Part shown: one piece after another, positions 30,889-42,569 of the stretch | Position numbering within the stretch: position 1 is the stretch's first letter | How the letters are laid out: each line of letters starts with the position of its first letter | From: Exiguobacterium sp. s122 | GTDB taxonomy: Bacteria; Bacillota; Bacilli; Exiguobacteriales; Exiguobacteriaceae | Assembly: GCF_018618475.1 (NCBI RefSeq) | Contig: NZ_JACSMD010000001.1 | Location: 930,001-994,000 of the forward strand | Length of the DNA stretch: 64,000 nucleotides | Reading direction: 5' to 3' | The notes under the pieces: model-generated | What the model saw: only the letters and a program-made list of their open reading frames with translations | Databases searched by the model: none | Told to the model about the DNA's origin: nothing | Program-made: the position numbers and the translations under genes

Positions 30889-31842
30889 TCACTTGCGGAG
30901 CGCCTTCACTTTAGGGAGGATGCTTCGAAGTTCTAGGAATGGCGTTTTATCGTGCGTGCTCAAGTCAGTCGGGTCGTATTGGCTCAAGAAGTCGATGACT
31001 TTTTTCGTAATCGGTGTCGGTGTCGAGGCGCCAGACGTGACCGCGACCGTCTCGACTCCTTCGAGCCAAGCGAGGTCGAGCTCGCTCAAGTCACCGATAC
31101 GATACGCGTTCGTGCCGGCAATCTCTTTTGAGACTTGGGCGAGGCGGTTCGAGTTGTTCGATTTCGGATCGCCGACGACGATGAGTAAATCACAATCTCC
31201 GGCCTGCTCAGCGACAGCTTCTTGACGAACTTGCGTCGCGTTGCAAATCTCGTTATGCACTTCGACGTGCGGGTAACGTTCTTGAATCTGTTCAATCAAC
31301 GCCGAGACGTCCCATTGGCTCATCGTCGTCTGGTTCGTGACGAGGATGTTTGTGTCGAACAAGTGCGCTGGCAATGCCTCGAGGTCTTCCTCGAACTGGA
31401 CGAGGTGGACTTTCCCCGGAGCGACACCCATTGCCCCTTCTGGTTCGGGATGGCCATGTTTGCCGATATAGATGACTTCATAGCCGACAGCCGTCTTTTC
31501 CCGAATGAGATCATGTGTGACGAGTACGTCCGGACAAGACGCATCGACAATCGTTAGCCCTTTTTCGATGGCCCGCTTTCGAACGAGCGGAGAGATGCCG
31601 TGGGCAGTGAAGACGACCGTTCCTTTGTCAATCGTTTCGAGTGCCTGCATGCGGTCGTCGCCGTCGACGGTTTTGACGCCGAGGTCTTCGAACGCCTGGG
31701 TGACGTGCCGGTTGTGAACGATCATACCGAGTATATGGATTGGCCGTGGTAAATCTGGGTTGGCCACAGCCTCGTTGGCGAGCTTCATGGCGTCGACGAC
31801 ACCATAGCAGTAACCGCGCGGGCTGATTTTTTTAATTTTCAT
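30889..31842 (-). CDS. ispH: 4-hydroxy-3-methylbut-2-enyl diphosphate reductase IspH
   Basis: The last enzyme of the non-mevalonate (MEP) isoprenoid pathway, making IPP and DMAPP with an iron-sulfur cluster. The 317-residue protein has the three cluster cysteines in GYCYGV (Cys12), DASCPDV (about 102) and NEICNATQ (about 199). Substrate-binding motifs are [23 protein letters not shown] and VTSGASTP. It lies on the minus strand, facing yqfO. GAAAGGAG precedes the ATG. ispG, the preceding pathway step, is also in this window. Confidence 0.98.
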
Positions 31843-31928
31843 TATGCGATGAACGCTCCTTTCGCGATGCTTTCATACGTCTTAGTCTAACATTGTTTCG
31901 AAAATACGAAAAGAATTGCGTGTATTCA

Positions 31929-31937
31929 TGCTATAAT
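31929..31937 (+). promoter_or_regulatory. Extended -10 promoter of the sensor kinase operon
   Basis: TGCTATAAT gives a consensus -10 (31932-31937) with the TGn extension. The -35 region lacks a good match, which an extended -10 can tolerate. The kinase starts 26 bp downstream. Confidence 0.65.
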
Positions 31938-31962
31938 TTGAAGGTTAGAAAGGAGGGACACC

Positions 31963-33726
31963 GTGGAACGTTTGAAATCATTGCTAGAAGTCCGTAAATC
32001 GTACTTCTTTCAAATCACGTTTATCATCTTCATCATTTTAGGACTCGTCATCTCCTCTTTAGCGTTTTCGGCCGATCGCGTGACGGTGTCCCGTGCCGAA
32101 GAGTTGGCGAAAGACCAGTTCGATTATGCGATTGACGGCAGTATCGAGAATATGGAAACGCGGCTCGGGAAGCTGTATGAGGACCTCGTCTACCTTGGTG
32201 CGTACCTCGGGAATGAGCCATGGATTGAAGAACGGATTCGCACCGGCTATTTGAACCAGCGCACGGGATTCACGTCCATCTTCTATTATGATTTAAGAGA
32301 AGATGCGTTCACGTGGTATTCGCAGCGGCAAGTTCCGGCGATGACGTTGAAGGCCGATCCAAAATTCACGAACGTCATCACGTCTGGCGGCAACGAAATT
32401 TATATGAGTGACCCGATTTCCATCTCTGGAGATGTCGGGACGTATTTGTATGTCCCGGTGCTAGAAGACAACCGGCCGATTGGTCTGTTCGGGGGGAGTA
32501 TCAGTGTCCTCAACTCGGATTTATATCGACGGGTATTGGAATCGGCGAATGACAATATGATTCTGTATTTATTGAACGAACGTGGAGAAGTGTTATCGAC
32601 GTCGTTCAACCTTGTCACCGATGCCGAGCGGCGTCTGTCCCGGTCGGTCATTGAAGAGACGAGAAATAAGGACTTGCGTTCAATCATGAGCACGGACACA
32701 GACGTCTATATGTATGAACCGGACGCCCGAGTCAACGGCTGGAGCGTGCTCGCCAAACATAGCACCGATTCCGTGTATGAAGCGGTCTATGCGACGCGTT
32801 GGCAATATTTAATGATCACGCTCGTCACGTTCTTTCTCAGTATCCTCGTCGGACTGCTTCTATCCAAGACGTTGACGAGCCCGCTCACGGAGCTCGTACA
32901 AAACATTAAACGACAACAATCGCTCGAACCGATTCAGCTTGAACGGACCGGTTCAAAAGAAGTCCAGACGCTACTCGACACGTATAACGACTATTCGAGA
33001 CGAATGGAAACGTCGCGGCGCGAGCAGTTGAGTCAGCAACAGCTGTTGCTCCAGCAAGAAAAACTGGCCTCGCTCGGTCAACTCGCTGCCGGGATTGCCC
33101 ATGAGATTCGGAATCCGCTCACACCGGTCCAAATCACGCTTCAAATGGTGAAAGAGGGGCATAGCAGTCAAGAGATGCTCGATTTGGCCCTCTCTGAGCT
33201 CGACCGGGCCAATCACTTGATTTCGACGATGCTCACACTCGCGAAGCCGGACCAATCGAAACGCGACGAAGAGTGGCTCGACATGGCTGAATTTGCGAGC
33301 CGGCTCGAATTTCTGCTCGACGCTGAATGTTATAAGCGTGTGACGAAATGGGAACTGATTGTCCCGAACGAGATGCCGCCGTTTTATTGCTCGAACGATA
33401 TGCTCGTGCAAATCATCTATAACTTGTTTAAAAACGCGGTCGAGGCCGTCGATTCAAAAGGAGCGGACGGAAGCGTCACCGTGACGATCCTCTTCACAGA
33501 GCGAGATTATCGATTCTTGATTGAGGATAACGGGGTCGGCATGACGAAAGCGCAAGTAAAGGCTGTCGGTTCGGCGTTCTATACGACGAAAGAAAACGGG
33601 AACGGACTTGGACTGTATATGATTCGAGAATATTTGAAGGCCGTGAACGGCCAAATGGAAATCGAAAGTGTTGAAGGAGAAGGAACGGCCATGATGATTA
33701 AAATCCCAAGGCGGTCAGACGTATGA
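31963..33726 (+). CDS. Membrane sensor histidine kinase with extracellular dCache-like domain (orphan)
   Basis: A 587-residue kinase. A first membrane helix spans about 14-36 and an extracellular sensor about 37-280; its end (GWSVLAKHSTDSVYEAV) looks like a dCache membrane-proximal strand. A second helix lies at 283-301, HAMP at about 302-355 and a Gln-rich coiled coil at 356-367. HisKA has the phospho-acceptor His380 in GIAHEIRNPLTP, and HATPase has the N box NLFKNAVEA, IEDNGVGM and GNGLGLYMIREYL. The catalytic core resembles the KinA/KinB type. No response regulator is adjacent. It overlaps the next gene by 4 bp, so the two proteins are made together. Start GTG at 31963 with AGGAGGG. Confidence 0.9.
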   Translation: MERLKSLLEVRKSYFFQITFIIFIILGLVISSLAFSADRVTVSRAEELAKDQFDYAIDGSIENMETRLGKLYEDLVYLGAYLGNEPWIEERIRTGYLNQRTGFTSIFYYDLREDAFTWYSQRQVPAMTLKADPKFTNVITSGGNEIYMSDPISISGDVGTYLYVPVLEDNRPIGLFGGSISVLNSDLYRRVLESANDNMILYLLNERGEVLSTSFNLVTDAERRLSRSVIEETRNKDLRSIMSTDTDVYMYEPDARVNGWSVLAKHSTDSVYEAVYATRWQYLMITLVTFFLSILVGLLLSKTLTSPLTELVQNIKRQQSLEPIQLERTGSKEVQTLLDTYNDYSRRMETSRREQLSQQQLLLQQEKLASLGQLAAGIAHEIRNPLTPVQITLQMVKEGHSSQEMLDLALSELDRANHLISTMLTLAKPDQSKRDEEWLDMAEFASRLEFLLDAECYKRVTKWELIVPNEMPPFYCSNDMLVQIIYNLFKNAVEAVDSKGADGSVTVTILFTERDYRFLIEDNGVGMTKAQVKAVGSAFYTTKENGNGLGLYMIREYLKAVNGQMEIESVEGEGTAMMIKIPRRSDV

Positions 33727-34658
33727 AGGGGTTCCGTCACTATTGGCTATGGCTTCCCATCGTATGGGCGATGACGATTCTGCTCATCACTTCGATTCAA
33801 CTACCGGAGCAAAAGACGAAAGATAATGAAGTCGGTTTCGTCTTCGTCAGTGACAAACATGAGCATGCGAATAAACTGCTCGCCGCTTTCGTTCGAACGG
33901 CCAATCAAAAAGGGTTCATTCCCATCCCGACGACGAGTGAAGACTCCCGCGTGCTAGAAAAAGAGAAACTCGATTCGTTGATTGACCGTGGCGTCGAAGC
34001 GATTTTTGTGACAACGCTCGATGAGACGTTCATCCGTCCTTCATTAGAGCGAGCGGAGCGGGAAGGCATCCCGATTATCGCGATTGACCGCATGATTGAC
34101 CATGATAGCGTGCTCACATCGGTCGTCTCGGACAACATCGAAATCGGGCGGATGGCAGCGAACCATATTGCCGCCAAACACGCCAATCTCAATCGCCCGA
34201 TTCGTGTCGTCGAAGTGAGAGGGACGGCAAAAGTCCGCTCCACGATCGACCGGAGCCTCGGGTTGACAGAGTATGATCAGGCACACGATGAGCTTGAAGT
34301 CGTCGCTTCCTTAACCGGGAACTTCGACACGTTCCAAGCCGAGATTGAAATGTCGCGCTGGTTAAAAGAAGAGATCCCGTTCGATGCAATCTTCTCGCAT
34401 AACGATGACAATACGTTCGGCGTCGTCCGTGCCCTTGAGAGCAGGGGATTGCTCGATAAAACCATCATCTCGGTCGACGGGGTCACCGAGATGTATCCTT
34501 TAATTCATAAAGGAGAAGTCGACGCCACCATCGTGCAGTCGCCAAACGAGATGATTGAAGTCGGGTTCAAGGCGCTCGAACAGTATTTGAGCGGGAAAAA
34601 GATTTCCCGTCATTACTATTCATCGAGCTATTTATACGAAGGACTCATAAAAGATTAA
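33723..34658 (+). CDS. Membrane-anchored periplasmic-binding-protein-like sensor (RbsB/LacI fold)
   Basis: A 311-residue protein with an N-terminal membrane helix (about 7-25) and no lipobox cysteine, so it is tethered by an uncleaved helix or a signal peptide. The rest is a type I sugar-binding fold: GFVFVSD at the first strand, PIIAIDR, the SDNIEIGRMAANHI signature, FSHNDDNTFGVVRAL and a TIVQSPNEMIEVGFKAL end. No transporter permease or ATPase is nearby. The 4-bp overlap with the upstream kinase suggests it delivers a ligand signal to that kinase. The ligand is unknown. Confidence 0.85.
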   Translation: MKGFRHYWLWLPIVWAMTILLITSIQLPEQKTKDNEVGFVFVSDKHEHANKLLAAFVRTANQKGFIPIPTTSEDSRVLEKEKLDSLIDRGVEAIFVTTLDETFIRPSLERAEREGIPIIAIDRMIDHDSVLTSVVSDNIEIGRMAANHIAAKHANLNRPIRVVEVRGTAKVRSTIDRSLGLTEYDQAHDELEVVASLTGNFDTFQAEIEMSRWLKEEIPFDAIFSHNDDNTFGVVRALESRGLLDKTIISVDGVTEMYPLIHKGEVDATIVQSPNEMIEVGFKALEQYLSGKKISRHYYSSSYLYEGLIKD

Positions 34659-34686
34659 TTGACAAATGATTAGATTCCGCTATGCT
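34659..34686 (+). promoter_or_regulatory. SigA promoter of cshB
   Basis: A perfect TTGACA (34659-34664), a 16-bp spacer and TATGCT (34681-34686), starting directly after the stop of the binding-protein gene. Confidence 0.75.
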
Positions 34687-34719
34687 AGGAAAAGTGGAAA
34701 GAAACAGGAGGTGTATCGA

Positions 34720-36066
34720 TTGAACAGCTTCCAACAGTTCAAATTGTTACCGTTTATCGTCGATGCCTTGACAGAAAAGCGCATCACCAAGCCGACCGAC
34801 ATTCAGGCCCGGATCATTCCGGCTGCCATGAACGGTCGTGACATCATCGGAAAATCACAGACCGGTACAGGGAAGACGCTTGCGTTTCTCTTACCGATTT
34901 TAGAAGCCATCAACCCGGAAGACCAATCGGTTCAAGCGATTGTCGTCGCGCCGACGCGTGAACTCGCATGGCAAATTCACGAGGAGTTAAAATCGCTCCT
35001 CATCAAACAACCGGAATTCATCAAAACGAGTTTGATTGTCGGGGGAACGGACCGCGAGCGTCAAATCGATCGCATGAAAAACCCGCCGCAACTCATCATC
35101 GGGACACCGGGACGGATTCTCGATTTGATGAAAGTCCAGGCACTCTTCCCGCACAAAGTTACACACTTTGTCGTCGATGAGGCCGATCAAATGCTCGACA
35201 TGGGCTTCTTGCCTGAAGTCGACCGCATCGCGCAAGCGTTGCCGGAAAAACTTCAAACGATGGTCTTCTCGGCTACGATTCCAGAGAAGCTCGAGCCGTT
35301 CTTGAAGAAATATTTGCACGACCCGCGTTACGCGGAAGCGAGTGCAGAACACCGTGTCGTGCCGAAAATCAAGCACCACACGATTCCCGTCCGTCACCGT
35401 GACCGTAAAGCGTTGACGGTCGAAGTCGCCAAAGCCATCAATCCGTTCGTCTGTCTCGTGTTCACGAACACGAAGCAAGAAGCGGATGAGCTCGAGACGA
35501 CGTTCCGCGAGGCGGGACTCAACGTCGGGACGCTTCATGGTGACATGCAGGCACGCCGTCGTAAGCAAGCGATTAAAGATATTAACGACGCGAAGTATCA
35601 ATACGTCATCGCGACCGACTTGGCTGCGCGTGGTATTGATATTAAAGGCGTTTCGCACGTCATCAACTTCGGCATCCCGAAAGATCTCGACTTCTACACG
35701 CACCGTGTCGGTCGGACAGGTCGTGCCGGAGCGACGGGTGAGGCGTACACGCTTTACGAAGACCACGAGAACGGTCCAATCAACCGTCTTGAAGAGCGCG
35801 GATTCTCGTTCACGCACGTCGATGTGCGCCACGATGGATCGCTTCAGCCAATCAAGACACGTAAACGTCGTACGACAGACCGGAAGATGAAAGTCTCGCA
35901 AACGGCCCACAGCCGCATGGCCGGGGAAATCAAGAAAGCGAAGAAGAAAGTCAAACCGGGCTACAAGAAGAAGTTCAAGTATAAGTTGAAAGAAACGGCT
36001 TCACGTGAGCATATGCAAAGTCAACGCAAAGAGCGTCGTGAAATCCGTAAGAAAAATAAACGTTGA
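34720..36066 (+). CDS. cshB: DEAD-box RNA helicase CshB
   Basis: An ATP-dependent RNA helicase of about 448 residues. The core motifs are in order: PTDIQARIIPA (Q motif), SQTGTGKT (I), PTRELAWQ (Ia), VVDEADQM (II, DEAD), FSATIP (III), LVFTNTK (IV), ATDLAARGIDI (V) and HRVGRTGRAG (VI). A short, very basic C-terminal tail should bind RNA. Position upstream of nfo matches B. subtilis cshB (yqfR). The frame extends upstream to 34666, but CAGGAGGTG is spaced for the TTG at 34720. Confidence 0.95.
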   Translation: MNSFQQFKLLPFIVDALTEKRITKPTDIQARIIPAAMNGRDIIGKSQTGTGKTLAFLLPILEAINPEDQSVQAIVVAPTRELAWQIHEELKSLLIKQPEFIKTSLIVGGTDRERQIDRMKNPPQLIIGTPGRILDLMKVQALFPHKVTHFVVDEADQMLDMGFLPEVDRIAQALPEKLQTMVFSATIPEKLEPFLKKYLHDPRYAEASAEHRVVPKIKHHTIPVRHRDRKALTVEVAKAINPFVCLVFTNTKQEADELETTFREAGLNVGTLHGDMQARRRKQAIKDINDAKYQYVIATDLAARGIDIKGVSHVINFGIPKDLDFYTHRVGRTGRAGATGEAYTLYEDHENGPINRLEERGFSFTHVDVRHDGSLQPIKTRKRRTTDRKMKVSQTAHSRMAGEIKKAKKKVKPGYKKKFKYKLKETASREHMQSQRKERREIRKKNKR

Positions 36067-41810: not shown

Positions 41811-42569
41811 ATGACGACACCTGTCGTGAAACTACATCACGTGTCCTATTATTATGATGGCACAGCCGCGCTCCAGGACGTGTCCATCGAGATCGGGCAA
41901 GGAGATTTCGTGGCCATCGTCGGCGAGAACGGGTCGGGAAAATCGACGCTCATTCGGTCGATTTTAGGTTTGTTGACACCCCAGAGCGGTTCGGTCGAAC
42001 TGTTTGGCCGGCCCCAAGCCCAATTTAAAGAGAAGTCCCGTATCAGTTACGTTTCCCAAAAAGCCGCCTCATTTAACTCAGGTTTCCCGGTCACGGTCGA
42101 AGAAGTGGTCGCCATGGGTCGATACGGAAGAATCGGTCTATTTAAACGATTGAACATGGAAGATCAAGCCGCCATCCAGAACGCCCTCGAGACGGTCAAC
42201 ATGTGGCAATATCGCGACCGTAAAATCGGAAGTCTGTCGGGCGGTCAGCAACAACGGGTGTTCATTGCCCGTGCGATTGTTAACCAGCCGGATTTGCTCA
42301 TTCTCGACGAACCGACGGTCGGCGTCGATCAAAAACATTTGCGTGATTTTTATGAAGTCCTGCACCTGTTGCGCGAGCACACGTCATGCACGTTCATTCT
42401 CGTCACCCATGATTTGAACGTCGTGACCGACCTTGTCACGAAAGTTGTCCATCTCGACAGAGGACGGCTGGCATGTAACTGCGGTTTGAAAGAATATAGC
42501 GAACTGAGTGAATTGACGGCCATCAAGCCGTATCCCGTCAAATTGCTCGTTCATGAAGGTTCATCATGA
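41811..42569 (+). CDS. znuC: Zinc ABC transporter ATP-binding protein ZnuC/AdcC
   Basis: A 252-residue ATPase that powers zinc import. It has Walker A GENGSGKST, signature LSGGQQQR, Walker B LLILDEPTVGVD and the H-loop VTHDLN. Similar ATPases serve Mn and Fe; the zinc call rests on the Zur box and the zur gene in the operon. The stop overlaps the start of znuB by 4 bp. The zinc-binding lipoprotein ZnuA is not encoded here. Confidence 0.93.
   Translation: MTTPVVKLHHVSYYYDGTAALQDVSIEIGQGDFVAIVGENGSGKSTLIRSILGLLTPQSGSVELFGRPQAQFKEKSRISYVSQKAASFNSGFPVTVEEVVAMGRYGRIGLFKRLNMEDQAAIQNALETVNMWQYRDRKIGSLSGGQQQRVFIARAIVNQPDLLILDEPTVGVDQKHLRDFYEVLHLLREHTSCTFILVTHDLNVVTDLVTKVVHLDRGRLACNCGLKEYSELSELTAIKPYPVKLLVHEGSS

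Follow-up and report, generated by a model that had tools for sequence, protein, structure and literature searches.

A kinase co-translated with a ribose-type binding protein in Exiguobacterium, a candidate receptor unit for the Spo0 phosphorelay

What does a sensor kinase sense, and to which partner does it pass its phosphate, when it is co-translated with a sugar-binding-type protein and has no response regulator beside it? The question is raised by two overlapping genes of Exiguobacterium sp. s122 that lie in a stretch of 64,000 nucleotides (contig NZ_JACSMD010000001.1, positions 930,001 to 994,000 of the forward strand), hereafter the window, whose first letter is position 1. One gene encodes a sensor histidine kinase and the other a type I binding protein. 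We hold, with moderate confidence, that they make up one receptor unit, in which a ribose-type binding protein acts on a KinD-like kinase that feeds the Spo0F-Spo0B-Spo0A relay. What is proposed is a new combination of known kinds of parts with a specific downstream pathway, and no description of this pair was found in the openly licensed literature searched. The features of the pair are as follows.

31963..33726, plus strand: sensor histidine kinase gene, GTG start, 587 amino acids; transmembrane helix, predicted dCache, transmembrane helix, HisKA, HATPase_c
33723..34658, plus strand: type I (ribose-type) binding-protein gene, product apparently membrane-anchored; ATG start, 311 amino acids, helix at residues 7-24, no lipobox
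33723..33726, plus strand: ATGA shared by the kinase stop and the binding-protein start, 4 bp
32074..32796, plus strand: predicted extracellular dCache sensor, about residues 38-278, from predicted fold and PDB matches over 38-278; Pfam dCache_1 match below cut-off
33073..33255, plus strand: HisKA domain, residues 371-431, H-box AHEIRNPLT with His380 at 33100-33102
33397..33714, plus strand: HATPase_c domain, residues 479-584 (Pfam)
33831..34601, plus strand: Peripla_BP_4 domain, residues 37-293 (Pfam)

The kinase and the type I binding protein are confirmed as a real, co-translated pair. The two open reading frames (ORFs) share the ATGA, and 34 of the 36 genomes in which the junction was counted (38 less G026 and G032) retain a 4-bp overlap. 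The binding protein and the kinase sensor are each found in 19/19 genomes of the genus and 38/38 genomes of the family. Co-occurrence had been put forward as a check by an earlier reading of this DNA (the original prediction), with genes lying mostly apart to count against the pairing; instead, coordinates place both genes on the same contig and less than 2 kb apart in all 38 family genomes. A profile of the sensor run over 398 Bacilli genomes matched 38, all Exiguobacteriaceae, and 0 of the 360 others sampled, and a scan of genome contigs with the binding protein, which is limited to close relatives, gave 14 loci, each from Exiguobacterium. The pair belongs to the core gene set of Exiguobacteriaceae and is specific to that lineage. 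Its position between ispH and cshB, already pointed out in the original prediction, recurs in every locus checked, with ispH upstream and cshB downstream in 19/19 genus and 11/11 sister-genus loci examined; the conclusion then drawn that the pair is accessory does not stand, and an accessory island is ruled out by its presence in all 38 genomes. These gene names, like fbaA, recN, obg, rpmA and rbs, were assigned by reading the sequences and are presumptive.

Conservation extends to the proteins themselves. Identity to the sister-genus copies is 37-40% in the binding protein (10 rows) and 43-48% in the kinase (11 rows). Compared with three relatives each, the kinase gene has dN/dS ratios of 0.024-0.048 and the binding-protein gene has ratios of 0.031-0.039; these are rough values with several dS >1, and both genes appear to be under strong purifying selection. 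The alignments cover 29 of the 38 genomes for the binding protein (A1) and 30 of the 38 in the two others (A2 and A3). At one sister-genus locus (G026:C1:2472803-2473863), a frameshift close to the second membrane helix divides the kinase, and the partner gene has an open frame.

To which class does the kinase belong? Pfam gives HisKA (2.7e-14) and HATPase_c (3.9e-20) domains. Among the 20 kinases of its own genome with a recognizable H-box, it alone has HEIRNP, the others having HELRTP, HELKTP, HDLRTP and similar boxes; this survey read 30 of 36 HATPase_c matches, 20 with an H-box and 10 without (some GyrB-, ParE- or CheA-like). Scanned at the DNA level for H-E-hydrophobic-[RS]-N-P, the 38 genomes gave 66 matches, 38 of them in this kinase, one per genome. 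One HE[IL]RNP kinase per genome is thus present in 38/38 family genomes, "only" being limited here to HE-hydrophobic-[RS]-NP boxes, as kinases with other H-boxes escape the pattern. A second HEIRNP kinase was sought among the 28 further pattern matches and rejected, because all of them lie in frames of 21-121 codons, too short for kinases; a backward control pattern gave 7 matches in the same genomes, so that 28 exceeds the control, and many of the 28 represent a single site that recurs among the sister-genus genomes.

Outside the family, a search of 60 Bacilli genomes with the kinase core found a match at ≤1e-22 in 50. Thirty such loci were fetched, of which 29 have a box (HEIRNP in 26, HEVKNP in 2 and HEVRNP in 1), and one of these 29 kinases (L240) is immediately followed by spo0B- and obg-like genes. 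In a tree of 51 rows (this kinase, 2 sister-genus orthologs, 19 own-genome kinases and 29 of the 30 fetched loci, L245 being out), the core joins the 29 HE[IV][RK]NP Bacilli kinases, apart from the 19 own-genome HisKA kinases, with support 100/100. Clustering with the 29 is expected, because they were chosen as best matches; the informative result of the tree is that the core stands apart from the other kinases of its genome. KinD of Bacillus subtilis has an H-box of the same class, and the catalytic motifs are kept across the kinase alignment. H-box and tree together place the kinase in the phosphorelay (KinA-type) class, in agreement with the KinA-like class assigned to it originally.

The dCache_1 match of the sensor has an E value of 1.7e-7, yet reaches 31.5 bits versus a Pfam cut-off of 45, and the sensor sequence by itself had no match in the PDB at E ≤ 0.1. 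The sensor model (mean predicted local distance difference test [pLDDT] score, 83.7) matches PDB structures at Z 13.6-17.1 across the 50 best entries listed, mostly dCache sensors, with the KinD sensor entries 4jgr (Z 15.0), 4jgq (14.9), 4jgo (14.7) and 4jgp (14.4) among them; LuxQ is absent from these best 50, which does not speak against a resemblance. We accept the sub-cut-off call because the predicted fold matches dCache structures. Pfam and predicted fold agree on the HisKA kinase with a dCache-like sensor that had been read from the sequence at the outset, and the sensor is predicted to have the dCache fold.

The partner is a type I binding protein by both domain (Peripla_BP_4, 2e-39) and predicted fold (pLDDT 84.5), the best fold match being 3l6u of Exiguobacterium sibiricum, followed by ribose-binding proteins. 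The first helix of the model spans residues 7-24, and a Cys at the lipobox position occurs in 0 of the 29 rows of the alignment, in keeping with the N-terminal helix and missing lipobox noted before. The protein probably has an uncleaved membrane anchor, with signal peptidase cleavage as the other possibility. Seven RbsB residues (1drk; D89, R90, R141, F164, N190, D215, Q235), which we take to be ribose contacts, correspond in a HMMER alignment to D122, R123, R177, F201, N227, D252 and Q272; all 29 rows agree at six of the seven positions and have either F or Y at the other. The N-lobe loop departs from that of RbsB: K45, H46, E47 and A49 are also invariant and fall roughly opposite RbsB N13/F15/F16 in an alignment made by eye. 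Because the RbsB-type sugar-contact positions are kept in 29 rows, the likeliest reading is a working pocket, for a ligand that is sugar-like but other than ribose. Elsewhere in the genome, a separate ribose-type ATP-binding cassette (ABC) operon (L150) includes a binding protein of its own, and therefore such transport is already served.

The E. sibiricum structure 3L6U is a sister-genus homolog of the binding protein (38% identity in structural alignment, E 5.2e-57); for the binding protein from a sister-genus pair, the match to 3L6U is at 2.8e-147. The crystallized chain starts past the membrane helix and is titled "ABC-type sugar transport system periplasmic component"; no paper mentioning 3L6U was found in the openly licensed literature searched. 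Binding lipoproteins of ABC transporters have a lipobox Cys and adjacent sugar ABC genes, and both are lacking here. The pair has no sugar ABC transporter gene next to it, the neighbors of the binding protein being the kinase and cshB; an ABC ATP-binding ORF lies elsewhere in the window, at 41811-42569. None of the genome's 27 receiver-domain matches falls within the window, the nearest being ~65 kb from the kinase. The expectation of a pair with neither sugar transporter nor regulator nearby is thereby borne out.

If no regulator is close by, which proteins could receive the phosphate? By position the kinase is an orphan, as first described, but that description is incomplete, since Spo0F, Spo0B and Spo0A are all encoded elsewhere in the genome. 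The 8 best of 183 PDB matches of a stand-alone receiver are Spo0F (9.4e-23 to 2.4e-20), with CheY-type structures at 1e-14 and weaker; its gene lies upstream of fbaA-like and transaldolase-like genes and is present in 38/38 family genomes, the sister-genus copies being 45-50% identical. The Spo0B gene stands between rpmA- and obg-like genes. Its PDB matches at E ≤ 1 are three Spo0B chains only (~5e-4), its histidine box is RHEWMN versus RHDWMN in those chains, and the SPOB_a domain is found in 38/38 family genomes, 37 over the cut-off. Spo0A, examined in the s122 genome, scores 263.9 bits versus a cut-off of 200, and its gene follows a recN-like gene. Relay genes in Exiguobacterium are already published and not new. 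According to passages in PMC2615787 (2008), E. sibiricum has spo0A, spo0B, a Spo0F homolog and kinA/kinB orthologs, and a table in PMC3533761 (2012) lists Exiguobacterium as Spo0A positive without sporulation sigma factors; the host is non-sporulating.

The genome holds 36 HATPase_c matches, of which 27 were judged kinases, and six of these, including the present one, have no regulator match within 3.5 kb (for these distances, 8 of the 10 H-box-less HATPase_c matches were re-read, plus two more stretches). The other five orphans (L105, L107, L108, L109 and L113) have H-boxes of the HELRTP/HDFRTP kind. Together with L111 they form one six-row tree group with weak support (90/73), and a CheY-like receiver, L092, lies ~2.5 kb from L111; the six kinases are perhaps a second network of many kinases to one receiver. 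An OmpR-type regulator, L081 (L151:2850-3542), on a 107-kb contig, has no kinase ORF in the 5.5 kb read and adjoins multicopper-oxidase-like fragments.

How does the pair compare with known systems? KinD of B. subtilis has the domain order transmembrane segment, dCache, HisKA, HATPase according to a table in PMC11210211, which is the order of parts in this kinase, and KinD sensor structures fit its sensor model at Z 14.4-15.0. Unlike KinD, this kinase occurs in a non-sporulating host and scores far below the KinD equivalog cut-off. The partners also differ: KinD reportedly requires a membrane-attached partner, the lipoprotein Med (title of Banse et al. 2011), whereas the partner here is a ribose-type binding protein of the same operon. 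In LuxP-LuxQ of Vibrio, as here, a type I binding protein acts on or accompanies a dCache-like kinase sensor, LuxP being a soluble periplasmic protein that acts on the hybrid kinase LuxQ; in our pair, the binding protein is predicted to be tethered and the kinase is of the HisKA/HATPase_c type. A pair of the LuxPQ kind has adjoining co-translated genes, a partner with the type I fold and a kinase sensor outside the cell, all found here, and would also make a direct contact, dependent on ligand, by which kinase activity changes. The tandem-PAS sensor of LuxQ is said in a passage of PMC5658362 to resemble dCache remotely. Clo1313_1973 of Acetivibrio thermocellus, which affects sporulation and is an orphan kinase predicted to have a periplasmic binding domain (passages in PMC11210211), combines binding domain and kinase in one protein, in contrast to the two proteins and the dCache sensor here. 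The original prediction had chosen XylFII-LytS as precedent, and KinD proves closer in architecture and kinase class, as does LuxP-LuxQ in setting a binding protein on a dCache-like sensor. In XylFII-LytS, likewise from a Gram-positive lineage, the kinase is presented with ligand by a sugar binding protein; the LytS-type His_kinase domain is absent from the 9 Pfam matches of our kinase (E up to 1), and no regulator is adjacent. KinD-Med, LuxPQ and Clo1313_1973 as precedents make it plausible that a loaded binding protein acts on dCache.

We propose that the binding protein, tethered on the outer face of the membrane, would use a pocket of the ribose-binding type to close on a small ligand, most probably a sugar or a compound resembling one, and that the loaded protein would dock on the dCache sensor and set the activity of the kinase. 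The KinD-like kinase would then pass phosphate to the stand-alone receiver Spo0F, and from there it would move to Spo0B and to Spo0A. Because Exiguobacterium does not sporulate, Spo0A would have non-sporulation targets, possibly other stationary-phase or lifestyle genes, with the pair as the main, perhaps only, KinA-type input. Several observations weigh against this proposal. The core is divergent: the KinD model gives it 113.8 bits versus 151-217 for eight other Bacilli kinases, and its tree branch is 1.86 long. The whole kinase scores 115 bits with the KinD equivalog (NF053867, cut-off 775) and 164.5 bits with the AtoS equivalog (NF008468, cut-off 646), and among NCBIfam models the core fits AtoS best, ahead of KinD; AtoS, ZraS and KinD are the top three for this core and for 8/8 other Bacilli kinases, and since AtoS leads for all eight as well, we give its rank no special weight. 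No Spo0F model appears among the 25 of 72 NCBIfam families listed for the receiver, and the Spo0B match of one sister-genus genome (G027:C7:957891-958010) has an internal stop and falls below the cut-off. The at least five further orphan kinases could also act on Spo0F, and the kinA and kinB orthologs stated for E. sibiricum in PMC2615787 fit poorly with a single KinA-type kinase.

Could the pair be a receptor whose kinase signals elsewhere, to the OmpR-type L081, the CheY-like L092 or several regulators, with other orphans driving the Spo0 relay? No kinase gene is found in the 5.5 kb around L081, and at least five other kinases are without a regulator within 3.5 kb, both consistent with such wiring. 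We nevertheless regard it as unlikely, in view of an H-box and core of the phosphorelay type in a genome whose other recognizable H-boxes are of the HELRTP kind, and of the weak grouping (90/73) of the five other orphans with L111, near which L092 lies. Alternatively, the binding protein might carry no ligand and stabilize or inhibit the kinase, much as KinD is reported to need Med (title of Banse et al. 2011). RbsB-type sugar-contact positions kept in 29 rows argue for a working pocket, which makes this quite improbable despite the architecture shared with KinD (given in a table of PMC11210211).

Still less probable, in our judgment, is a dCache domain that senses a small ligand of its own beside a binding protein that is merely co-expressed, for instance to capture the same compound. 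Most of the solved dCache matches do bind small ligands directly, going by their PDB titles, but the pair has no adjoining transporter gene that could make use of a captured ligand, the binding protein is seemingly anchored, and the gene overlap persists in 34/36 genomes. To the idea of a decaying remnant of a sporulation system, in line with the frameshifted kinase of 1 in 38 genomes (G026), which also counts against the proposed receptor unit, we give almost no credence, as dN/dS is 0.02-0.05, the catalytic motifs are kept and the pair is found in 38/38 genomes.

The region between the divergent ispH and the kinase gene carries further features.

31843..31962, no strand: ispH/kinase intergenic region, with extended -10-like TGCTATAAT at 31929-31937 and AAAGGAGGG ribosome-binding site at 31949-31957

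The extended -10-like TGCTATAAT upstream of the kinase is kept in 19/19 genus loci. A consensus promoter scan of 31700-34850 gave 3 hits versus 3.5 expected, none of them 5' of the kinase and TGCTATAAT not among them, and the same interval has 4 terminators versus 3.4 expected. Autoregulation of the pair by Spo0A was considered and is unsupported: the 0A-box consensus is TGNCGAA, and exact 0A boxes occur upstream in 1/30 loci. An inverted repeat, TTTCG-N6-CGAAA, lies at 31896-31911 and is present in 13/13 genus loci aligned; it is the single copy in the window, at least one copy also arises in 38/100 shuffles, and it is a possible regulator site.

The pair bears on the role that Spo0A plays, and on the inputs it has, in bacteria that kept it but lost sporulation. 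With one HE[IL]RNP kinase per genome and a binding protein that has a crystallized homolog, Exiguobacteriaceae make this question directly testable. If our reading is true, the label of 3L6U would shift from a transport component to a kinase co-receptor. More tentatively, a family-wide Spo0F-Spo0B-Spo0A relay may have outlived sporulation and been re-tasked, with a sugar receptor as its sole KinA-type input, and Spo0A would then serve these bacteria as a nutrient-controlled lifestyle switch.

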